Assembly: GCF_014652235.1 (NCBI RefSeq)
Contig: NZ_BMYK01000038.1
Span: forward strand, 1-43,553
Length of the DNA stretch: 43,553 bases
Origin: Pseudorhodoferax aquiterrae
Lineage (GTDB): Bacteria > Pseudomonadota > Gammaproteobacteria > Burkholderiales > Burkholderiaceae_C
Direction: 5' to 3'
Shown: positions 29,269 through 39,036 of the stretch, in pieces
How positions within the stretch are numbered: position 1 is the stretch's first letter
Layout: each line of letters starts with the position of its first letter
Made by a program: the position numbers and the translations under genes
The notes under the pieces: model-generated
The model's database searches: none
What the model was told of the DNA's origin: nothing
What the model saw: only the letters and a program-made list of their open reading frames with translations

Positions 29269-30177
29269 ATGGGAAGCATTGCGCACTACATCAAGGAAAT
29301 CGGCCGCGGCGCACGCGGCGCCAAGCCGCTCGCGCGCGAGCAGGCGGCCGATCTGTTCGGACAGATCCTGGACGGCAGGGTCACCGACCTGGAGGTCGGC
29401 GCCTTCTGCCTGGCCATGCGCGTCAAAGGGGAGACCACGCCAGAGATGGCCGGTTTCCTGGACGCCACGCATGCCCGTGTCGCCAAGCTGCCGGCAAGCC
29501 ATCGCCCTGTGGTCGTGCTGCCCAGCTACAACGGTGCGCGCAAGCTGCCGGTGCTGACGCCGCTGCTGGCGCTGCTGCTTGCGCGCGAAGGTCTGCCAGT
29601 GCTGGTGCACGGCAGCGCTACCGAAGGCAGCCGTGTGCTGGCCAGCGAGGTGCTGGCCTTGCTCGACCAACCGGCCTGGACCGGCATCCGTCGGATCGGC
29701 GAGGGTGAAGTGGCGGTGGTCGGCACCGAGTTGCTGCATCCTGGGCTCAAGCGCCTGCTCGACGTGCGCCGCGTGGTCGGCCTGCGCAACGCCGGGCACA
29801 GCGTGGTCAAGCTCATGCAGCCCGTCGATGGCCCGGCGGTGGTGGTCGGCAGCTACACCCATCCGGCATTCGCCACGGTCATGACCGAGCTGTTCGAACT
29901 GCTGGGCATGACGGCCCTGCTCTCGCGCGGCCTGGAAGGCGAAGTCGTCAGCGATCCGCGCCGCACCCCGCAGCTCGACGGCTTCGTGCGCGGCCGCCCG
30001 ATGACCTTGCAAGCGCAGCAGCCCGGCACGCAGGCCGAGGTGCCCGGGCTGCCGGCGTCGATCGCTGCGGCCGACACAGCGGAGTACACGCGCAGCGTGC
30101 TGGCTGGCCGCCTTCCCGTCCCGGCGGCCATCGCCGCCCAGGTCGACCACATCCTCCAGTTGACGTCCCACGCATGA
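29269..30177 (+). CDS. ybiB: YbiB/TrpD2-like DNA-binding protein
   Basis: 302 residues of the glycosyltransferase family 3 fold (anthranilate phosphoribosyltransferase-like), YbiB branch. IAHYIKEIGRGARGAKPL at the start matches the beginning of E. coli YbiB, and PSYNGARKLPVLTPLLALLL replaces the glycine-rich PRPP loop of TrpD, so it is not a TrpD enzyme. YbiB binds nucleic acid and is linked to LexA regulation in E. coli. I chose the ATG at 29269 because homology begins there; an in-frame ATG at 29191 overlapping the nasA stop would add 26 residues by translational coupling. Its presence in a nitrate operon is functionally unexplained. Overlaps cobA by 4 bases. Confidence 0.88.
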   Translation: MGSIAHYIKEIGRGARGAKPLAREQAADLFGQILDGRVTDLEVGAFCLAMRVKGETTPEMAGFLDATHARVAKLPASHRPVVVLPSYNGARKLPVLTPLLALLLAREGLPVLVHGSATEGSRVLASEVLALLDQPAWTGIRRIGEGEVAVVGTELLHPGLKRLLDVRRVVGLRNAGHSVVKLMQPVDGPAVVVGSYTHPAFATVMTELFELLGMTALLSRGLEGEVVSDPRRTPQLDGFVRGRPMTLQAQQPGTQAEVPGLPASIAAADTAEYTRSVLAGRLPVPAAIAAQVDHILQLTSHA

Positions 30178-30962
30178 ACAAGACCACCACCCCGCCGCTG
30201 GGCACCTGCACGCTGGTCGGCGCAGGCCCCGGCGATCCCGAACTGCTCACTCTCAAGGCGGTCAAGGCGATCCAGGCCGCGACCGTCCTGCTGGTCGACG
30301 ACCTCGTCAACCCCGAGGTGCTGGCCTGGGCCAGGCCGGACGCCCGCATCGTCCACGTGGGCAAGCGCGGCGGCTGCAAGAGCACGCCGCAGGCCTTCAT
30401 CGAGAAGCTCATGGTCATGGCCGTGCGCGATGGCGAACATGTGGTGCGCCTCAAGGGAGGAGATCCCTTCATCTTCGGCCGCGGCGGCGAGGAGGTGGAA
30501 CATCTGAGAGCTGCGGGCATTCCCTGCAGCGTTGTGAACGGCATCACTTCTGCACTGGCCGCCGCAAGCTCGCTGGGCGTTCCATTGACCCACCGCGAGC
30601 ATGCCCGTGGCGTGGTTTTCCTGACAGGACACGCCAAGCCCGGGGCCGAGGAAACCGATTGGGAACAAGCCGGCGCCAGCGCGCGGGCGCTCAAGCTCAC
30701 CCTGGTGATCTACATGGGCGTACGGGAAGCCGATCGGCTGCAGGCAGGCCTCCTGAAGGGCCTTCCAAGCGCGACGCCGGTGGCCATCGTTCAGGACGCC
30801 AGCCGTGCGACACAAACCTACTGCACCGGCCGACTGGACCGGCTCACAGCATTGATCGAGGCAAAAAAAATCGCCAGTCCGGCGATCATTGTGGTGGGTG
30901 ACGTCGTCCATGGCGTCGCCCAGCTCGCGGCACAGGAGCAGGAGTGCCGCACGGCCTCGTAA
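30174..30962 (+). CDS. cobA: Uroporphyrinogen-III C-methyltransferase
   Basis: 262 residues of the SUMT family. TLVGAGPGDPELLTLKAVKA at the start, VVRLKGGDPFIFGRGGEEVE, and VVNGITSALAAASSLGVPLTHRE are the SAM- and substrate-binding signatures. It methylates uroporphyrinogen III twice to precorrin-2, the branch toward sirohaem and B12. As the last gene of the nas operon it probably supplies sirohaem for nitrite reductase, whose gene is not here. It is a stand-alone enzyme without the CysG oxidase/chelatase half, so those steps are encoded elsewhere. The stop codon sits inside a hairpin loop (30952-30971). Confidence 0.96.
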   Translation: MNKTTTPPLGTCTLVGAGPGDPELLTLKAVKAIQAATVLLVDDLVNPEVLAWARPDARIVHVGKRGGCKSTPQAFIEKLMVMAVRDGEHVVRLKGGDPFIFGRGGEEVEHLRAAGIPCSVVNGITSALAAASSLGVPLTHREHARGVVFLTGHAKPGAEETDWEQAGASARALKLTLVIYMGVREADRLQAGLLKGLPSATPVAIVQDASRATQTYCTGRLDRLTALIEAKKIASPAIIVVGDVVHGVAQLAAQEQECRTAS

Positions 30963-30983: not shown

Positions 30984-31505
30984 CTAGAACCCCGCCAGCA
31001 ACTGCAGCAGGTTGTCAGCCTTGTCGTAAGGCATGGTTCCGCCACTGGGGCGGATGTAATCCTTGCTGTCCAACACGGCGATGAACATGCCACGGACATC
31101 GGTCTGGTTCACGTAGTAGGACGGATCTTTCGACGCATTGAGATATGCAACCGCCGCCCGCTGCGCCAAGAGCTTCGAACCCGAGATCGCTAGAGGACCG
31201 CTGTAGCCCTGGAGAATGTCCTTCAACAGCACGTTGTGCCAACGATTGTCCGTCCCGAACAGCTCCTTGAACTTGACCGGGCTGGTCTTGTACTGATCGA
31301 CGTAGGTCGCAAGGGGTGTCCCGGCGCAAATCGGCTCGTCATTGCCATTCGGCGACATGTTGCCGGAGACTTGACCAGACACAGTACACAAATAAGTGTT
31401 GCCCAGCGCCCTTTTGGACAGGAGGGACGACAACACCACGGGAGCGATGGCTGCTCCCTTTGCGAGTCGGCGGCGGCTCACTTCTCCAGGCTTTTGCGTG
31501 TTCAT
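30984..31505 (-). CDS. Tat-like secreted protein of unknown function near the HPr-rel-A genes
   Basis: 173 residues. SRRRLAKGAAIAPVVLSSLL at residues 10-29 looks like a twin-arginine signal, with cleavage near ALG-NT (about 35). The mature protein begins with CTVSGQVSGNMS, has only two cysteines (C40, C60), then FKELFGTD (79-86) and KLLAQRAAVAYLNAS (111-125). The last two features resemble a secreted domain I remember from other proteobacteria (F-x-x-x-FG and LARHAVAALLNA after a CSPGYWK motif); here the CSPGYWK motif itself is gone. The DNA is visibly less GC-rich than the flanking nas and yhiN genes. It follows the nucleotidyltransferase gene after a 121-base AT-rich gap on the same strand and may be the system's substrate. 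No enzyme motif is seen. Confidence 0.75.
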   Translation of the reverse strand: MNTQKPGEVSRRRLAKGAAIAPVVLSSLLSKRALGNTYLCTVSGQVSGNMSPNGNDEPICAGTPLATYVDQYKTSPVKFKELFGTDNRWHNVLLKDILQGYSGPLAISGSKLLAQRAAVAYLNASKDPSYYVNQTDVRGMFIAVLDSKDYIRPSGGTMPYDKADNLLQLLAGF

Positions 31506-31559
31506 TGAAAACTTTCAAGCATTTTGGCGTTGCACAGCAAGCTTCGCGCCAGAAAAATA

Positions 31560-31575
31560 ATTCTTGAGAATCATA
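31560..31575 (-). promoter_or_regulatory. Inverted repeat and -10-like box before the secreted-protein gene
   Basis: ATTCTTGAGAAT (31560-31571) is a perfect 5-2-5 palindrome; on the minus strand a TATGAT box (31575-31570) overlaps it. The core TGAGAATCAT shares 9 of 10 bases with the centre of the Fur consensus, but the outer arms do not match. It suggests a separate, possibly repressed promoter for the gene starting at 31505. Confidence 0.3.
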
Positions 31576-31626
31576 GGCTTACACTCTCTCGCTGCGCCCG
31601 TTCTTCATTAATGTAAGAAAAATCGA

Positions 31627-32697
31627 CTATCTTGACGGCTCGTCTGCGATGGCCTTGTAGACCAAATGTGGGATCAAACGATGCAAAGGCATGCGAAGCC
31701 AGTGCCCCCGAACGTAGAGCGTCGTCCTCACCATTCCAGCACTGCGTGAACTGGTGCTGGCATGGGCTCCCGCAAATGCCGTCATGAACAACCGGTCCAT
31801 CCAGGCCGACTCCCGCAGCCCGGCGCGGGCGAGATGTTGCCGTAGTTCGGTAGCGAGGGGCGTGCAAAAAACCACATCCAGGTACTTCGCGGCATACAGC
31901 AGGGGCTTTTGCAGGTTCAGCTCGAACGCGCGCGCTGCCAGGCGGCTCCCGTCGGCGTCGTCGGCCGCATAGGCACGCATCAGGAGATCCAGGTCGCTGA
32001 GATCACGGAGGCCCCCCGTGCTCCATTCCCCCTCGTGGAACAGGTGTGTTGCGGAGTGCAGGATGCGGTCCTGCGGCGCCGGAACGAAGACCTGCGTGAA
32101 TTGCGGGAGCGGCACCGCGGACGCCAGGATCAAATCGGGGCGGGTTTGGAGGCGGGCCGTCTGCGGCAGGATGTTGTGGTGCACATCGAGGCTGGTGCGC
32201 CGGCGCAAGTGGACCATCGGCGGCAGTTCATGCATCCACCTGCGGTAGTACATGTTGTCGTAGCGGCTCACGCCCTCGATCATCCAACCGCCCATGAACA
32301 ATGCATGCTCGACATCGCCGAGCCGCTCGCGCGGGACCAGAATGTCGATGTCGGCAAACATGCGGCCGGCAGCACTCGGTGCGTCGGCCATGACATAAGC
32401 GGCACCTTTCAGCAGGACGGTACGAACGTCCAGCCCTTCCAGTGCTTGCGCAATCTGCCGGACTTCCCAGCGAACTGCGTTCTGCTGGCGCGCCACAATG
32501 CTGCGCAGTGCGGAAAAATGCGGCCGGACGCATGGCGGCACGTCCACCCCCGCCGCCTCGGCCAGCACCCCCAGGCGCCCGAGCAGGCCCGTGGCCCTGG
32601 CCTGGCGGAGACCGATGTCCCAGTCCGCGTCCGAAAACCGGGCCATCTGCGTCGGAGCGCGCAAGGCAACGATGAGCGGGGATTCCAGCAGCTTCAT
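31627..32697 (-). CDS. Nucleotidyltransferase-family protein (NTP_transf_5-like)
   Basis: 356 residues. The nucleotidyltransferase core is VLLKGAAYVM (94-103) followed by GRMFADIDILV (111-121), with the metal-binding pair D116 and D118, and LDVHHNI (170-176), with D171 as the likely third acidic residue. The C-terminal half is helical with a His-rich segment (ILHSATHLFHEGEW). This matches an uncharacterised family of nucleotidyltransferases often found in polysaccharide, exosortase and HPr-rel-A gene clusters; its acceptor is unknown. The start overlaps the stop of the kinase gene (ATGA in the minus direction), which supports MKLLESPLIV as the N-terminus and a common operon. Confidence 0.85.
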   Translation of the reverse strand: MKLLESPLIVALRAPTQMARFSDADWDIGLRQARATGLLGRLGVLAEAAGVDVPPCVRPHFSALRSIVARQQNAVRWEVRQIAQALEGLDVRTVLLKGAAYVMADAPSAAGRMFADIDILVPRERLGDVEHALFMGGWMIEGVSRYDNMYYRRWMHELPPMVHLRRRTSLDVHHNILPQTARLQTRPDLILASAVPLPQFTQVFVPAPQDRILHSATHLFHEGEWSTGGLRDLSDLDLLMRAYAADDADGSRLAARAFELNLQKPLLYAAKYLDVVFCTPLATELRQHLARAGLRESAWMDRLFMTAFAGAHASTSSRSAGMVRTTLYVRGHWLRMPLHRLIPHLVYKAIADEPSR

Positions 32698-33593
32698 CGC
32701 GTGAGCGCGTCGAAGACCGCCAGTGCCTCGGGCAACTGCGTGTAAGTGAAGTCGTAGCACGCACAGGCATCGATCAGTGCTGCCGCGAGATCGAAGCCCA
32801 CACTGCCCAGCACCGGGTAATTGAATGCATGGTTGGTCAAATGCATGAAGGCGTCCGCCTTGGGACGGGTGGTCAAGGCGGCCTTCACATCCGGTTGCCA
32901 CCGGGGAAAGATGACGAAGGCGGCCGTGGCGCGTTGGTGCGCCATGGCGACACTGGGAGACGGCGGCTTGAGATGCGCGACGGTGCCCTTGTGGGTGTCG
33001 TAGGCCACCTCGCCCAGCACAGCGTCCACAGAGAGGCGGCGCACGATGTCGATCGACGCATTCTTGAGATTGACCGGCCGTGCCAGCGGCACCAGCAGCC
33101 CGTCGTCGCGGTCGATGATGGCCATTTCATCGGACAACAGGCGGTACCCACTGAGCGCAAGCGCCGCAGTCAGCGTGCTCTTGCCGGCGCCAGGGCTACC
33201 GGGCAGGATCAAGGCCTTGCCGTTGCGCTCCAACACGGCTGCATGCAGCAGCAGATAGTGGTGTGCATGCCCTGCGATGCACCAGTTGAGCCCCCATTCC
33301 AGCAACGCGTAGGCGTGGTTCGCGGGCAATGGCTTGAATGGTTGCACGCCGTCGAAATCGAAACTGACCTGAGGGCGAAAGCGCGCGCGCAGACCGCGGA
33401 CACGGTCCACCCGCACTGTGTAGTCGCAAAAGCCGCCGTCGCAGACCTGAAAGTCCCCATATAGCCTGCGCAGGCCTTGAAACACCGGCTCGGTGTGCGA
33501 GGTGATGCGGAATTTGAAGGGGCCAGTTGCCAGCGCAAGCCCGGTGCGCAGCGCTTCGCGCAATTGGGCATCGGCGAGCTCGGACAACTTCAT
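32694..33593 (-). CDS. HprK-related kinase A
   Basis: 299 residues. The P-loop LPGSPGAGKSTLTAAL is at 130-145 (K138, S139), preceded by HAAVLERNGKALI and followed by GYRLLSDEMAIID (149-161), the layout of the C-terminal domain of HPr serine kinase/phosphorylase. The first 110 residues do not resemble the HprK N-terminal domain. This is the arrangement named HprK-related kinase A; the protein it phosphorylates is not known, and no HPr (PTS) gene is nearby. Start and stop overlap both neighbours by 4 bases. The protein is likely cytoplasmic. Whether it is a kinase in fact rests on the family alone. Confidence 0.88.
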   Translation of the reverse strand: MKLSELADAQLREALRTGLALATGPFKFRITSHTEPVFQGLRRLYGDFQVCDGGFCDYTVRVDRVRGLRARFRPQVSFDFDGVQPFKPLPANHAYALLEWGLNWCIAGHAHHYLLLHAAVLERNGKALILPGSPGAGKSTLTAALALSGYRLLSDEMAIIDRDDGLLVPLARPVNLKNASIDIVRRLSVDAVLGEVAYDTHKGTVAHLKPPSPSVAMAHQRATAAFVIFPRWQPDVKAALTTRPKADAFMHLTNHAFNYPVLGSVGFDLAAALIDACACYDFTYTQLPEALAVFDALTR

Positions 33594-33862
33594 GCGCCGC
33601 GCACCACGATGCCCAGTCTGCGCAGTTCTTCCAGCGCTGCCTGCACGTCGTCCAGGTGCAGGTCGATTCGCTCGGACAGCGCCTGGGCGTCGTCTGGCTG
33701 CCCAGCCAGCGCCTGCAGCAGTTGGGCCACCGCCTGTGGTACGCGATGGGTATCGCCCGCTGCACCGTGAAAGACCACGCACTCGCTGTCCCATTGGCGA
33801 AACTGAAGTCGAGATTCGACAGCCAAATGCCAACACGGGCCGGCCTCATGGGTGGGGGTCAT
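33590..33862 (-). CDS. PqqD-like small protein, HPr-rel-A type
   Basis: 90 residues from the ATG at 33862 (93 from a GTG at 33871; neither has a Shine-Dalgarno). WHLAVESRLQFRQWDSECVVFHGAAGDTHRV is broken here as WHLAVESRLQFRQWD and ECVVFHGAAGDTHRV; it is followed by VAQLLQALAG and a small winged-helix tail VQAALEELRRLGIVV. This is the fold of PqqD/RRE proteins, which bind leader peptides of ribosomally made substrates. It is the first gene of a tightly overlapping set with the kinase and the nucleotidyltransferase. Alone it is too short to be certain, but the context fits the HPr-rel-A PqqD-like family. Confidence 0.8.
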   Translation of the reverse strand: MTPTHEAGPCWHLAVESRLQFRQWDSECVVFHGAAGDTHRVPQAVAQLLQALAGQPDDAQALSERIDLHLDDVQAALEELRRLGIVVRGA

Positions 33863-33892
33863 GGTCGTCACGGCCGGGTAGCATAACTGCGA

Positions 33893-35104
33893 ATGACCTT
33901 ACCTTCCTTCGATGCCGTGATCATCGGCGCTGGCGCCGCCGGCCTGTTCTGCGCTGGCATCGCGGGCCAGCGCGGCCTGCGGGTCTTGCTGCTGGACCAC
34001 AGCGCCAAGGTCGCGGAAAAGATCCGCATCTCCGGCGGCGGCCGGGCCAACTTCACGAACCTGGACGTCGGCCCGGGCAACTTCCTGTCCGACAACCCCC
34101 ATTTCTGCCGCGGCGCTCTCGCACGCTTCACGCCAAAGCAGTTCATCGCCCTACTGCAGCGCGACGCCATCGGCTTCCACGAGAAGCACCGTGGCCAGCT
34201 GTTCTGCGACCGCTCGGCCGAAGACTTGATCGACCTGCTGCTGCGCGAATGCGCGGCTGGCTCTGTCACGCGCTGGCAGCCATGTGCCGTGCACGCAGTG
34301 CGCACCACCGGCGATGCGCCCGCCCGCTACCTGCTGGCCACCGACCGCGGCGAGGTACGGACCCGCTCCGTGGTGGTCGCGACCGGCGGTCTGTCGATTC
34401 CCAAGATCGGCGCCAGCGATTACGGCTACCGGATCGCGCGCCAGTTCGGCCTGCGCCTGGTCGAACAGCGGCCGGCGCTGGTGCCGCTGACCTTCGACGA
34501 GCAAGCCTGGGAGCCCTTCGCGCAACTGGCCGGGCTGTCCCTGCCAGTGGACATCGCGACCGGCGAGAAGAAGGCCCGCACCAGTTTTTCCGAAGACCTG
34601 CTGTTCACGCACCGCGGCCTCAGCGGGCCCGCCGTGCTGCAGATCTCCGGCTACTGGAAGCCCGGAACGCCGATCGGCATCGACCTGTCGCCCCAGGTCG
34701 CACTGCTGCCCACCTTGCAGGACGCCAAGCTCAGCACGCGCCGCCTGCTCGCGAACGTGCTGGGCGAGCACCTGCCCGCGCGCCTGGCCGCCGCCTGGAC
34801 CGGCGCCGATCCCGGGTGGCAGAGACCGGCCAACGAAACGGCCGACAAGGCGCTCAATGCGCTGGCCAGCAGCCTGCACGGCTGGCAGCTGGTCCCGACC
34901 GGCACCGAGGGCTACCGCAAGGCCGAGGTCACAGCCGGCGGCGTGGACACGCGCGACCTGTCGTCGCAGACCATGGAGTCGCGCCAACCCGGGCTGTACT
35001 TCATCGGCGAGGTGGTCGATGTGACCGGGTGGCTCGGCGGCTACAACTTCCAATGGGCCTGGTCCAGCGCCTACAGTTGCGCCCAAGCCCTTACAGCCCC
35101 ATGA
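33893..35104 (+). CDS. YhiN/HI0933-family flavoprotein
   Basis: 403 residues. An N-terminal FAD site DAVIIGAGAAGLFCAGIAGQ (residues 8-27) is followed by KIRISGGGRANFTN, a family hallmark. The C-terminal flavin segment contains TAGGVDTRDLSSQTMESR and PGLYFIGEVVDVTGWLGGYN. The family (HI0933, YhiN) is widespread and uncharacterised; a role as an oxidoreductase of an unknown metabolite is all that can be said. The gene is divergent from the PqqD-like gene, with only 21-30 bases between the two starts, so their promoters must overlap or lie inside the coding parts. Confidence 0.9.
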   Translation: MTLPSFDAVIIGAGAAGLFCAGIAGQRGLRVLLLDHSAKVAEKIRISGGGRANFTNLDVGPGNFLSDNPHFCRGALARFTPKQFIALLQRDAIGFHEKHRGQLFCDRSAEDLIDLLLRECAAGSVTRWQPCAVHAVRTTGDAPARYLLATDRGEVRTRSVVVATGGLSIPKIGASDYGYRIARQFGLRLVEQRPALVPLTFDEQAWEPFAQLAGLSLPVDIATGEKKARTSFSEDLLFTHRGLSGPAVLQISGYWKPGTPIGIDLSPQVALLPTLQDAKLSTRRLLANVLGEHLPARLAAAWTGADPGWQRPANETADKALNALASSLHGWQLVPTGTEGYRKAEVTAGGVDTRDLSSQTMESRQPGLYFIGEVVDVTGWLGGYNFQWAWSSAYSCAQALTAP

Positions 35105-37665: not shown

Positions 37666-39036
37666 TCAGCTGCCAGCCACCTTCATGCGCTCGACCAGCA
37701 CCGAGCCCACGGTCTTGGCGCCGTAGTTGTAGGCATCGGCGCCCACGGCGACGATGCCCTGGAACATGTCCTTGAGATTGCCGGCGATGGTGATCTCCTC
37801 GACCGGGTGGACGATCCTGCCGTTCTCGACCCAGAAACCGCTGGCCCCGCGCGAATAGTCCCCCGTCACGTAGTTCACGCCCTGGCCCATGAGTTCGGTC
37901 ACGAACAGGCCGCGGCCCAGTTTGCGCAGCATGGCATCGAGGTCGTCGCCGGGGTGGGTCAGGCGCGACTGCAGCACCAGGTTGTGCGAACCGCCGGCAT
38001 TGCCGGTCGTGCGCATGCCCAGTTTGCGCGCCGAATAGGTCGACAGGAAATAGCCCTGCACGCGCCCTGCGTCCACGACCTTGCGTGCCGCCACGCGCAC
38101 GCCCTCTTCGTCGAACGGCGAGCTGCCCTTGCCGCGCAGCACGAAGGGGTCTTCGAGCAGGTCGATGTGCTCGGGAAACACCGCCTTGCCCAGCGCATCG
38201 AGCAGGAAACTGCTGCGCCGGTACAGCGCGCCACCGCTGACAGCCTGCACGAAGCCTCCCACCAGCCCGGCCGCCAGCGGCGACTCGAACAGCACCGGGC
38301 ATTCCACCGTCTTGATCTTGCGCGCCTTCAGGCGCGACAAGGCACGCTCGGCGGCGTAGCGCCCCACGGCCTCGGGCGAGGCCAGCTCCTCGGCATTGCG
38401 CATCGAGCTGTACCAGGCGTCGCGCTGCATTTGCGCGCCACGGCCCGCGATGGGCGCGACCGAGATCGAATGGCGCGAACTCGCGTAGCCGCCGCGAAAG
38501 CCCGAACTGTGGCCCGTGAAGAAGTGCGATTGCTGGGCCGAGACGCCCGCGCCCTCGCTGTTGGTGATGCGCTTGTCGGTCGCGAAGGCGGCGGCCTCGC
38601 AGCGCAGCGCCAGTGTGGCCGCCCCTTCGGAGTCGACGTCCCAGGGATGGAACAGGTCGAGGTCGGGCTGTTCGGTCGCCATGTCCTGCGGATCGGGCAG
38701 ACCGGCTGCCGGGTCCTCGGCCGTGAATCGCGCGATGTCGAACGCAGCCTGCACGGTCTGGCGGATGGCCGCAGGCGAGAAGTCCGAGGTGCTGGCATTG
38801 CCGCGGCGCTTGCCGGCATAGACCGTCACGCCCAGCGACTTGTCGCGGTTGCGCTCCACGTTCTCAAGCTCGCCCTTGCGCACCGAAACCGACAGGCCAC
38901 AGCCCTCCGAAGCCTCGGCACCGGCATCGGTGGCGCCGATCTTCTTGGCATGGGCCAGGGCCTGCTCCACGAGTTCCTGGAAAAACGGACGGCTGTAGCT
39001 GAAGCCGGCCGCGGCAGCTTGGGAAGATGCATTCAT
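37666..39036 (-). CDS. pmbA: Metalloprotease PmbA/TldE
   Basis: 456 residues from MNASSQAAAAGFSYSRPFFQ; the frame is open 22 codons further upstream without homology. Typical TldE/PmbA stretches are AEASEGCGLSVSVRKGELENVE, here AEASEGCGLSVSVRK then GELENVERNRDKSLGVTVYAG; NAGGSHNLVLQ; and VTGDYSRGASGFWVENGRI. PmbA and TldD together form a peptidase that matures microcin-type peptides and degrades CcdA; PmbA itself lacks the HExxxH of TldD. tldD is not in the window. It is divergent from darP (86 bases), the usual pmbA-yjgA arrangement. Confidence 0.95.
   Translation of the reverse strand: MNASSQAAAAGFSYSRPFFQELVEQALAHAKKIGATDAGAEASEGCGLSVSVRKGELENVERNRDKSLGVTVYAGKRRGNASTSDFSPAAIRQTVQAAFDIARFTAEDPAAGLPDPQDMATEQPDLDLFHPWDVDSEGAATLALRCEAAAFATDKRITNSEGAGVSAQQSHFFTGHSSGFRGGYASSRHSISVAPIAGRGAQMQRDAWYSSMRNAEELASPEAVGRYAAERALSRLKARKIKTVECPVLFESPLAAGLVGGFVQAVSGGALYRRSSFLLDALGKAVFPEHIDLLEDPFVLRGKGSSPFDEEGVRVAARKVVDAGRVQGYFLSTYSARKLGMRTTGNAGGSHNLVLQSRLTHPGDDLDAMLRKLGRGLFVTELMGQGVNYVTGDYSRGASGFWVENGRIVHPVEEITIAGNLKDMFQGIVAVGADAYNYGAKTVGSVLVERMKVAGS

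Follow-up and report, generated by a model that had tools for sequence, protein, structure and literature searches.

A twin-arginine protein with a conserved leader accompanies the HPr-rel-A kinase and nucleotidyltransferase and is their likely substrate

A stretch of 43,553 nucleotides from Pseudorhodoferax aquiterrae (contig NZ_BMYK01000038.1; hereafter the window) carries on its minus strand four neighbouring genes of the HPr-rel-A system: a PqqD-like protein, an HprK-related kinase, a nucleotidyltransferase and a small protein whose leader carries twin arginines (here called the RR protein). We found that this fourth gene accompanies the enzymes almost universally, that its leader is specific to loci of the kinase, and that serines close to the leader or to the C-terminus are conserved; these three observations are new here. 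Together with intact catalytic residues in the enzymes and the swapping of the cassette as a unit, they make it probable that HPr-rel-A is a four-part, leader-guided modification cassette in which the RR protein is phosphorylated, capped with a nucleotidyl or sugar group and exported. An earlier note, made from the letters of the window alone, had proposed that a PqqD-guided kinase and nucleotidyltransferase act on a peptide or protein. Its observation was right and proved stronger than stated, and the secreted protein can now be named as the likely substrate, with candidate serines.

Results

The cassette in the window

The features of the cassette are as follows.

33590..33871, minus strand: PqqD-like protein (putative leader binder), 93 amino acids; TIGR04353, 49.4 bits, cut-off 35
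32694..33593, minus strand: HprK-related kinase A, 299 amino acids; TIGR04352, 386.7 bits, cut-off 200
33177..33200, minus strand: kinase P-loop GSPGAGKS, read in the sequence; K138 in 173/173 members
31627..32697, minus strand: PF14907 nucleotidyltransferase (NTP_transf_5), 356 amino acids; 175.1 bits, cut-off 31.2
32344..32367, minus strand: nucleotidyltransferase core GRMFADID, residues 111-118, read in the sequence; R112, D116 and D118 in 163/163 members
30984..31505, minus strand: RR-leader protein, putative substrate, 173 amino acids; neighbour of the enzymes in 167/174 non-duplicate loci
31398..31505, minus strand: N-terminal leader of the RR protein with the twin arginine, residues 1-36; leader-only profile A4
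31353..31388, minus strand: serine motif C40-T-V-S43-G-Q-V-S47-G-N-M-S51, candidate modification sites; group-A conservation
30987..31328, minus strand: folded domain, residues 60-173, of a divergent SPGYWKNH type; AlphaFold2 model

Open reading frames (ORFs) were taken from a home-made caller and from stop-to-stop frames. All four genes of the earlier note are present where it placed them, in the order PqqD-like protein, kinase, nucleotidyltransferase and, after a gap of 121 bases, RR protein. Both of the ATGA junctions that it described can be read in the sequence, one at 33590-33593 (PqqD stop and kinase start) and one at 32694-32697 (kinase stop and nucleotidyltransferase start). The PqqD-like gene begins with GTG, and an in-frame ATG 9 bases inside is an alternative possible start. 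The domain identities it had assigned hold, since all three profile scores exceed their cut-offs, and by these cut-offs the window is a member of the HPr-rel-A system (TIGR04352 and TIGR04353, the latter titled 'HPr-rel-A system PqqD family peptide chaperone'). PF14907 beside the kinase is a feature drawn from the loci seen here; the window has it, with an ATGA overlap, and its G-R-x-x-x-D-x-D core is the one that the earlier note had picked out. A promoter and terminator scan of the cassette gave no signal above shuffles, and no HPr gene was recognised in the block.

Co-occurrence of the fourth gene with the enzymes

Of 300 genomes of the order, 50 had a kinase above the TIGR04352 cut-off (a single copy in that of the window); the counts were 61 of 398 for the phylum and 0 of 14 for well-known control genomes. 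All 50 order-level neighbourhoods, i.e., the window and 49 further loci, were used. An RR profile was seeded with the window protein and 14 relatives at BLAST E<0.01 and iterated five times over 7081 stop-to-stop ORFs, and it recovered one homologous ORF per locus in 50/50 loci. The weakest match, in L034 (3.4e-6), was to a low-complexity protein. In the 48 loci with a placed kinase the RR gene always lay on the kinase strand. It was upstream 41 times and downstream 7 times, the window belonging to the downstream set; adjacency therefore outlasts change in gene order.

A scan of named genomes supplied 80 further loci, 7 of which were duplicate contigs that were dropped before counting. A profile trained solely on the first 50 detected the RR gene in 79/80 of these (72/73 without the duplicates); the exception, L115 from a Nitrosospira metagenome-assembled genome, has the kinase and nucleotidyltransferase only. 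A phylum-level sample of 51 further loci had the RR gene in 45; the profile accounts for 41 of these, and the other 4 (L230, L231, L232 and L236) were recognised by pattern and by eye. The total is 167 of 174 non-duplicate loci, related genomes in these counts not being independent events, and the gene was also present in 5/5 other genomes of the window's genus. The earlier note had counted the secreted gene as part of the cluster and had held that its absence from most other loci would speak against this; it is absent from few. The fourth gene is near-universal, and its association with the enzymes goes beyond chance neighbourhood.

Several loci depart from the simple arrangement. Two different RR proteins stand in tandem after the nucleotidyltransferase in L080 (8071-9600), L081 (5668-7107) and L085 (2532-4043), which are among the window's nearest relatives, as if a single enzyme set had two substrates. 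In L083 (5788-11123) the kinase-nucleotidyltransferase pair occurs twice in a row, and one PqqD and one RR gene were detected. The RR and PqqD genes of L202 are on the strand opposite to the kinase, and in L102 (5947-6924) an in-frame stop breaks the kinase frame into two adjacent pieces.

Groups and leader of the RR proteins

RR proteins are about 110-290 amino acids long (trimmed frames); that of the window is about 15 kDa without its leader. They were sorted into groups A to E by patterns and by eye. The patterns placed the 170 RR proteins of the 167 loci as 109 in group A (the window's kind), 35 in B, 9 in E, 5 in C and 2 in D, with 10 unassigned; of these ten, inspection by eye moved L108, L111, L119 and L145 to A and L211 to B.

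A profile of 42 group-A RR proteins (A2) was searched over 300 genomes. At E<=1e-3 it matched in 43 of the 50 genomes that bear the kinase and in 8 of the 250 others. Two of these eight extras were the folded domain alone in frames of more than 1000 amino acids (G108 and G184), and six were borderline (5.3e-4 to 9.7e-4). A second profile, A4, covers the leader only, in 39 positions and 34 sequences from all groups; 13 of an initial 47 sequences were dropped, three as mis-picked, seven as near repeats and three as a divergent leader type (L074, L075 and L130; genome G049 belongs there too). Over 200 genomes A4 gave 27 matches at E<=6.1e-6, every one of them less than 2 kilobases (kb) from a TIGR04352 kinase. 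No match away from a kinase was found in the 200 genomes at E<=1e-5, the next being at 5.5e-4. If the 200 are G000-G199, then 32 of them have a kinase over the cut-off, and A4 missed five: G111, G049, G137, G067 and G118. The sensitivity of A4 is flattered because some of its sequences stem from the searched genomes; the absence of matches elsewhere is unaffected.

The earlier note had called the secreted protein Tat-like (Tat, twin-arginine translocation). The features behind the label stood: twin arginines (R11 and R12) precede a hydrophobic stretch in 111/111 group-A proteins, and a twin arginine is present in 35/35 of group B. The label itself did not carry over to the common Tat profile, TIGR01409, which the window RR protein does not match at E<=1; one group-B member scores 14.6 against its cut-off of 16.7. 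As judged by these profiles, the leader is more than a common Tat signal, because TIGR01409 misses the RR protein and matches to the leader cluster at kinases. Tat is nevertheless the likeliest export route, given the twin arginines and the hydrophobic stretch.

Candidate serines and fold

In group A, the residues most conserved after the twin arginine are two serines outside the hydrophobic stretch. Among 111 members, S43 and S47 are each kept in 110, C40 in 108 and S51 in 95. The adjoining segment of group-A proteins holds a SPGYWKNH-like motif, of which the window protein keeps little. Groups B and E carry the motif [STN]C[WYF]xS[LFIV] near the C-terminus, with 1-6 residues past the motif serine in 40/44 proteins. 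The motif occurs in the last 30 residues of 44/170 RR proteins and of 0/1937 other genes. Its invariance within B and E is no evidence, because these groups were defined by it; its absence elsewhere is.

The window RR protein has no Pfam or NCBIfam match at E<=1. When 11 fourth-gene members were compared with both databases none reached a cut-off, and two had matches below it. An AlphaFold2 model of the window protein has a mean predicted local distance difference test score (pLDDT) of 76.7, with ten-residue blocks past residue 60 at 79-95 and one at 60. The serine segment is at about 65 in this model and at about 75 in that of a canonical group-A member (mean 82.4). Searches of the PDB by fold gave best E values of 2.6 (window model) and 3.7 (canonical member), a weak negative.

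The folded domain of group A also occurs within giant frames of 1046-2888 amino acids in four genomes. These probably secreted SPGYWKNH-domain proteins lie at L160 2016-10682, L161 2437-6342, L162 2802-5942 and L163 3-4796. They share the domain with the group-A RR proteins but differ in what precedes it: the match begins at position 83-85 of the model, and neither the leader nor the serine motif is seen in the 60 residues ahead of it.

Catalytic residues and kinase tree

Both enzymes appear catalytically intact throughout. In the kinase, H117, K138, D155 and E156 are invariant in 173/173 aligned members, and in the nucleotidyltransferase K97, G98, R112, D116, D118 and D171 are invariant in 163/163. 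Of 159 aligned PqqD-like proteins, 156 have T41 and 148 have H42. The alignment of the kinase with HprK (1jb1) is confined to the P-loop and catalytic region; a sequence comparison of the nucleotidyltransferase with the PDB returned nothing at E<=1. When the five substrate groups, which cover 161 rows, are mapped onto a FastTree tree of the 173 kinases, 4 changes are needed, the minimum for five states. The window kinase groups with those of Thiobacillus-like and other loci in a set of 13 rows (support 99) and stands away from the kinases of L074 and L075, which come from two other genera of its family.

Exchange of the cassette at one chromosomal site

The cassette of the window is flanked by two core genes, as the earlier note had said.

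30174..30962, plus strand: uroporphyrinogen-III C-methyltransferase, outside the cassette; TIGR01469, 276.5 bits, cut-off 185
33893..35104, plus strand: TIGR00275 / HI0933-like flavin adenine dinucleotide (FAD) enzyme, outside the cassette; 355.7 bits, cut-off 183.8

Its G+C content is 0.623 against 0.690 in the remainder of the window, and the lowest value among 698 stretches of the same length outside the cassette is 0.656, which agrees with the lower G+C that had been reported for the block.

The kinase is present in 6/6 genomes examined of the window's genus. The two flank genes of the window also enclose the cassette in 5/5 of the others, the FAD enzyme being 76.8-93.0% identical. Genomes G708, G712 and G711 have a cassette of the window type, with the RR gene last and kinases 96.7, 69.6 and 67.0% identical to that of the window; the RR orthologue of G708 is 83.8% identical. 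Another type, with the RR gene first, occupies the site in G710 and G709. Here identity to the window is 92.5 and 89.3% for the FAD enzyme of the flank but 43.1 and 42.8% for the kinase; these kinases are 57-60% identical to those of L074 and L075. The RR proteins of G710 and G709 match those of L074 and L075 at 35-39% over about 200 residues, and match the window RR protein only at E 0.9 and 0.16. Since both the enzymes and the RR gene diverge between conserved flanks, they were replaced together. Whole cassettes have been exchanged for one another at a single site within the genus, and the transfer that the earlier note read from base composition is supported by two distantly related versions at this site.

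Few parts of the cassette change faster than the RR protein. Between the window and G712, identity is 89.9% for the FAD enzyme, 69.6% for the kinase, 52.4% for the nucleotidyltransferase and 41.8% for the PqqD-like protein, and the RR proteins align only in their first 86 residues (48.8%). No cassette gene was found in 29 FAD-enzyme loci from other genera of the family, which were covered with no more than 1.5 kb of flanking sequence apiece. The methyltransferase was within reach in 5 of the 29, and in L247, L248 and L254 there are 87-160 bases between the two matches; these three are apparent empty sites.

Genomic context

Certain gene families recur beside the cassettes and vary with the RR group. 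A Trypsin_2 peptidase family is near 34/174 loci, 30 of them of group A (e.g., L037 7020-7787), and could process the RR protein. A Sel1/SLT family is near 17/174 loci. A family with the XrtA amidotransferase is near 25/174 loci, 23 of them of group B, and one with two XrtA glycosyltransferases is near 24/174, 22 of them of group B. These neighbour families and the giant domain proteins give a hint of a cell-surface or matrix role.

About 25 group-A loci (L051, L061, L062 and similar) adjoin look-alikes of hemA, prfA, prmC and glutaredoxin, named by eye, with the families themselves counted; this block is a second favoured chromosomal site for group-A cassettes. Homologues of asparagine synthase stand beside the group-B cassettes L031 (4739-6652) and L045 (10820-12655); their glutaminase part matches poorly, and the lasso cyclase model scores below its cut-off. 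In the window a PmbA metalloprotease gene lies at 37666-39036, about 4 kb away from the cassette. Some leaders of ribosomally synthesized and post-translationally modified peptides (RiPPs) are trimmed by TldD/PmbA proteases. PmbA is a core gene, however, and its nearness may mean nothing.

Discussion

The cassette as a leader-guided modification pathway

The proposed pathway would run as follows. The RR protein is made with its conserved leader, which the PqqD-like protein would bind in the cytoplasm, presenting the RR protein to the HprK-type kinase. The kinase would then phosphorylate a conserved serine, with S43 and S47 as candidates in group A and a serine close to the C-terminus in groups B and E. 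To this phosphate the nucleotidyltransferase would add a nucleotidyl or sugar group, as reported for PsmN in pseudomycoidin, and the finished RR protein would leave the cell through its twin-arginine leader. ATP and other nucleoside triphosphates are cytoplasmic, and modification should therefore precede export. Tat carries folded proteins, which would fit that order.

The precedent comes from lasso peptide clusters. According to two reviews and one survey, an HprK-homologous kinase phosphorylates the C-terminal serine of the lasso precursor (PMC9266682, PMC8498205, PMC7533575), a nucleotidyltransferase, PsmN in the case of pseudomycoidin, adds one or two hexoses to the serine phosphate (PMC9266682), and the PqqD-like protein B1 binds the leader (PMC7533575, PMC8498205). 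The same kind of trio stands here beside a leader protein with invariant serines, and by analogy this suggests that the logic of lasso tailoring acts on a small exported protein. The PqqD-guided scheme of the earlier note is thus backed as a genomic argument, its chemistry being what we infer. A broader formulation, which we hold tentatively and with less confidence, is a RiPP-like pathway at protein scale, in which a kinase and a nucleotidyltransferase directed by the leader put phospho-sugar or nucleotidyl groups on invariant serines of a small folded protein ahead of its export, and in which the product diversifies so fast that entire cassettes, enzymes and substrate together, are swapped like alleles at a fixed site of the chromosome.

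Certain points weigh against the modification cassette. The modification itself, its site, the order of steps, the binding of the leader by PqqD, export and purpose are all what we infer from the pattern of genes and residues. The leader profile is partly circular, having been built from the same kind of loci as it was scored on, and so is the definition of groups B and E by their own motif. The other profiles, too, were trained on loci similar to the ones counted, save the one restricted to the first 50. The position of the candidate serine differs between groups, and a single enzyme family would not necessarily accept this. The window RR protein ends in ADNLLQLLAGF, with no serine or threonine in these eleven residues. 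A single C-terminal serine site for all groups was rejected, being excluded by this ending for the window. The RR leader is absent among the 45 matches to TIGR01409 (TAT_signal_seq) at E<=1 in the window's genome. When the 12 unassigned or RR-less rows are entered as two extra labels, 13 changes are required on the kinase tree, against a possible minimum of 6. No RR gene was detected in seven of the 174 loci (L115, L204, L205, L216, L225, L239 and L240), and PqqD went undetected in L115, L132, L137, L155, L204, L205, L216 and L224-L229, so that PqqD is perhaps dispensable at times or too diverged. In L204, L205 and L216 the kinase exceeds the TIGR04352 cut-off, neither PqqD nor RR was found, and the surroundings are by eye of exopolysaccharide type; these kinases perhaps represent a second use of the kinase.

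Alternative explanations

The enzymes might instead make or decorate a small molecule or polysaccharide, with the RR protein as a secreted binding or export partner. The XrtA/PEP-CTERM exopolysaccharide genes near many loci (the 25 and 24 of 174 given above) fit this account, as do those kinase homologues that sit in exopolysaccharide surroundings without an RR protein. We nonetheless consider it unlikely: PqqD-type proteins are known leader binders (in the parts drawn on of PMC7533575 and PMC8498205), the leader is specific to kinase loci, and no polysaccharide gene is among the ten genes scanned on the flanks of the cassette in the window (NCBIfam at E<=1e-30, Pfam at E<=1e-5). It is also conceivable that the RR protein is simply Tat-exported, the PqqD-like protein serving as a proofreading chaperone and the kinase and nucleotidyltransferase regulating export. 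Tat substrates often have dedicated chaperones, and the twin arginines of groups A and B are without exception. However, TIGR01409 misses the leader, no ordinary Tat protein of the window's genome matches the leader profile at E<=0.01, and the strongest conservation after the twin arginine falls on two serines outside the hydrophobic stretch, which makes this account distinctly improbable. An ordinary Tat protein was rejected as a sufficient account for the first two of these reasons.

Least probable of all, to the point of being very doubtful, is the account in which a small peptide was overlooked in what is really a classical RiPP cluster, of the lasso-peptide or another kind. The trio of kinase, PqqD and nucleotidyltransferase is that of pseudomycoidin-type clusters (parts of PMC9266682), and the asparagine-synthase homologues beside L031 and L045 could be counted in its favour. 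Yet no gene of asparagine-synthase or transglutaminase type is among the same ten flanking genes of the window, and the product of the near-universal fourth gene is a protein some 110-290 amino acids long, with a folded domain in group A. A lasso cluster is disfavoured on anatomy, as neither a cyclase nor a B2 protease is found among those ten genes.

Relation to known systems

In the paper collection searched, which was probed for the system and its models, PF14907, the domain motif and combinations of the parts, we found no paper describing the HPr-rel-A system or its function; the one paper that came up under the PqqD-related label concerned cacaoidin. With paeninodin (PadeK) and pseudomycoidin (PsmK and PsmN) the cassette has in common an HprK-homologous kinase, a PqqD-like binder, a nucleotidyltransferase, a serine acceptor and a precursor with a leader, as far as the parts of PMC9266682, PMC8498205 and PMC7533575 drawn on here describe them. 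It differs in its putative substrate, which instead of a threaded peptide is a small protein that starts with a twin-arginine leader and, in group A, has a folded domain. The residues listed for the lasso kinases are His-Lys-Asp-Asp; in the list for the kinases here, H117/K138/D155/E156, the fourth is Glu. HPr kinase/phosphorylase shares the P-loop, the catalytic His and the Asp region with the window kinase, which however scores only 17.3 bits against the TIGR00679 cut-off of 240.

Implications

A system so far named by its parts in NCBIfam gains a testable substrate, a leader and candidate serines, and the leader profile is a tool for finding the putative substrate. If the modification cassette is right, PF14907, listed in Pfam as 'Uncharacterised nucleotidyltransferase', would gain an assayable function, and tailoring by lasso-type kinases and nucleotidyltransferases would extend to small exported proteins. 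On the broader RiPP-like formulation, allele-like exchange of cassettes is what would be expected of a product for recognition, matrix building or cell competition.

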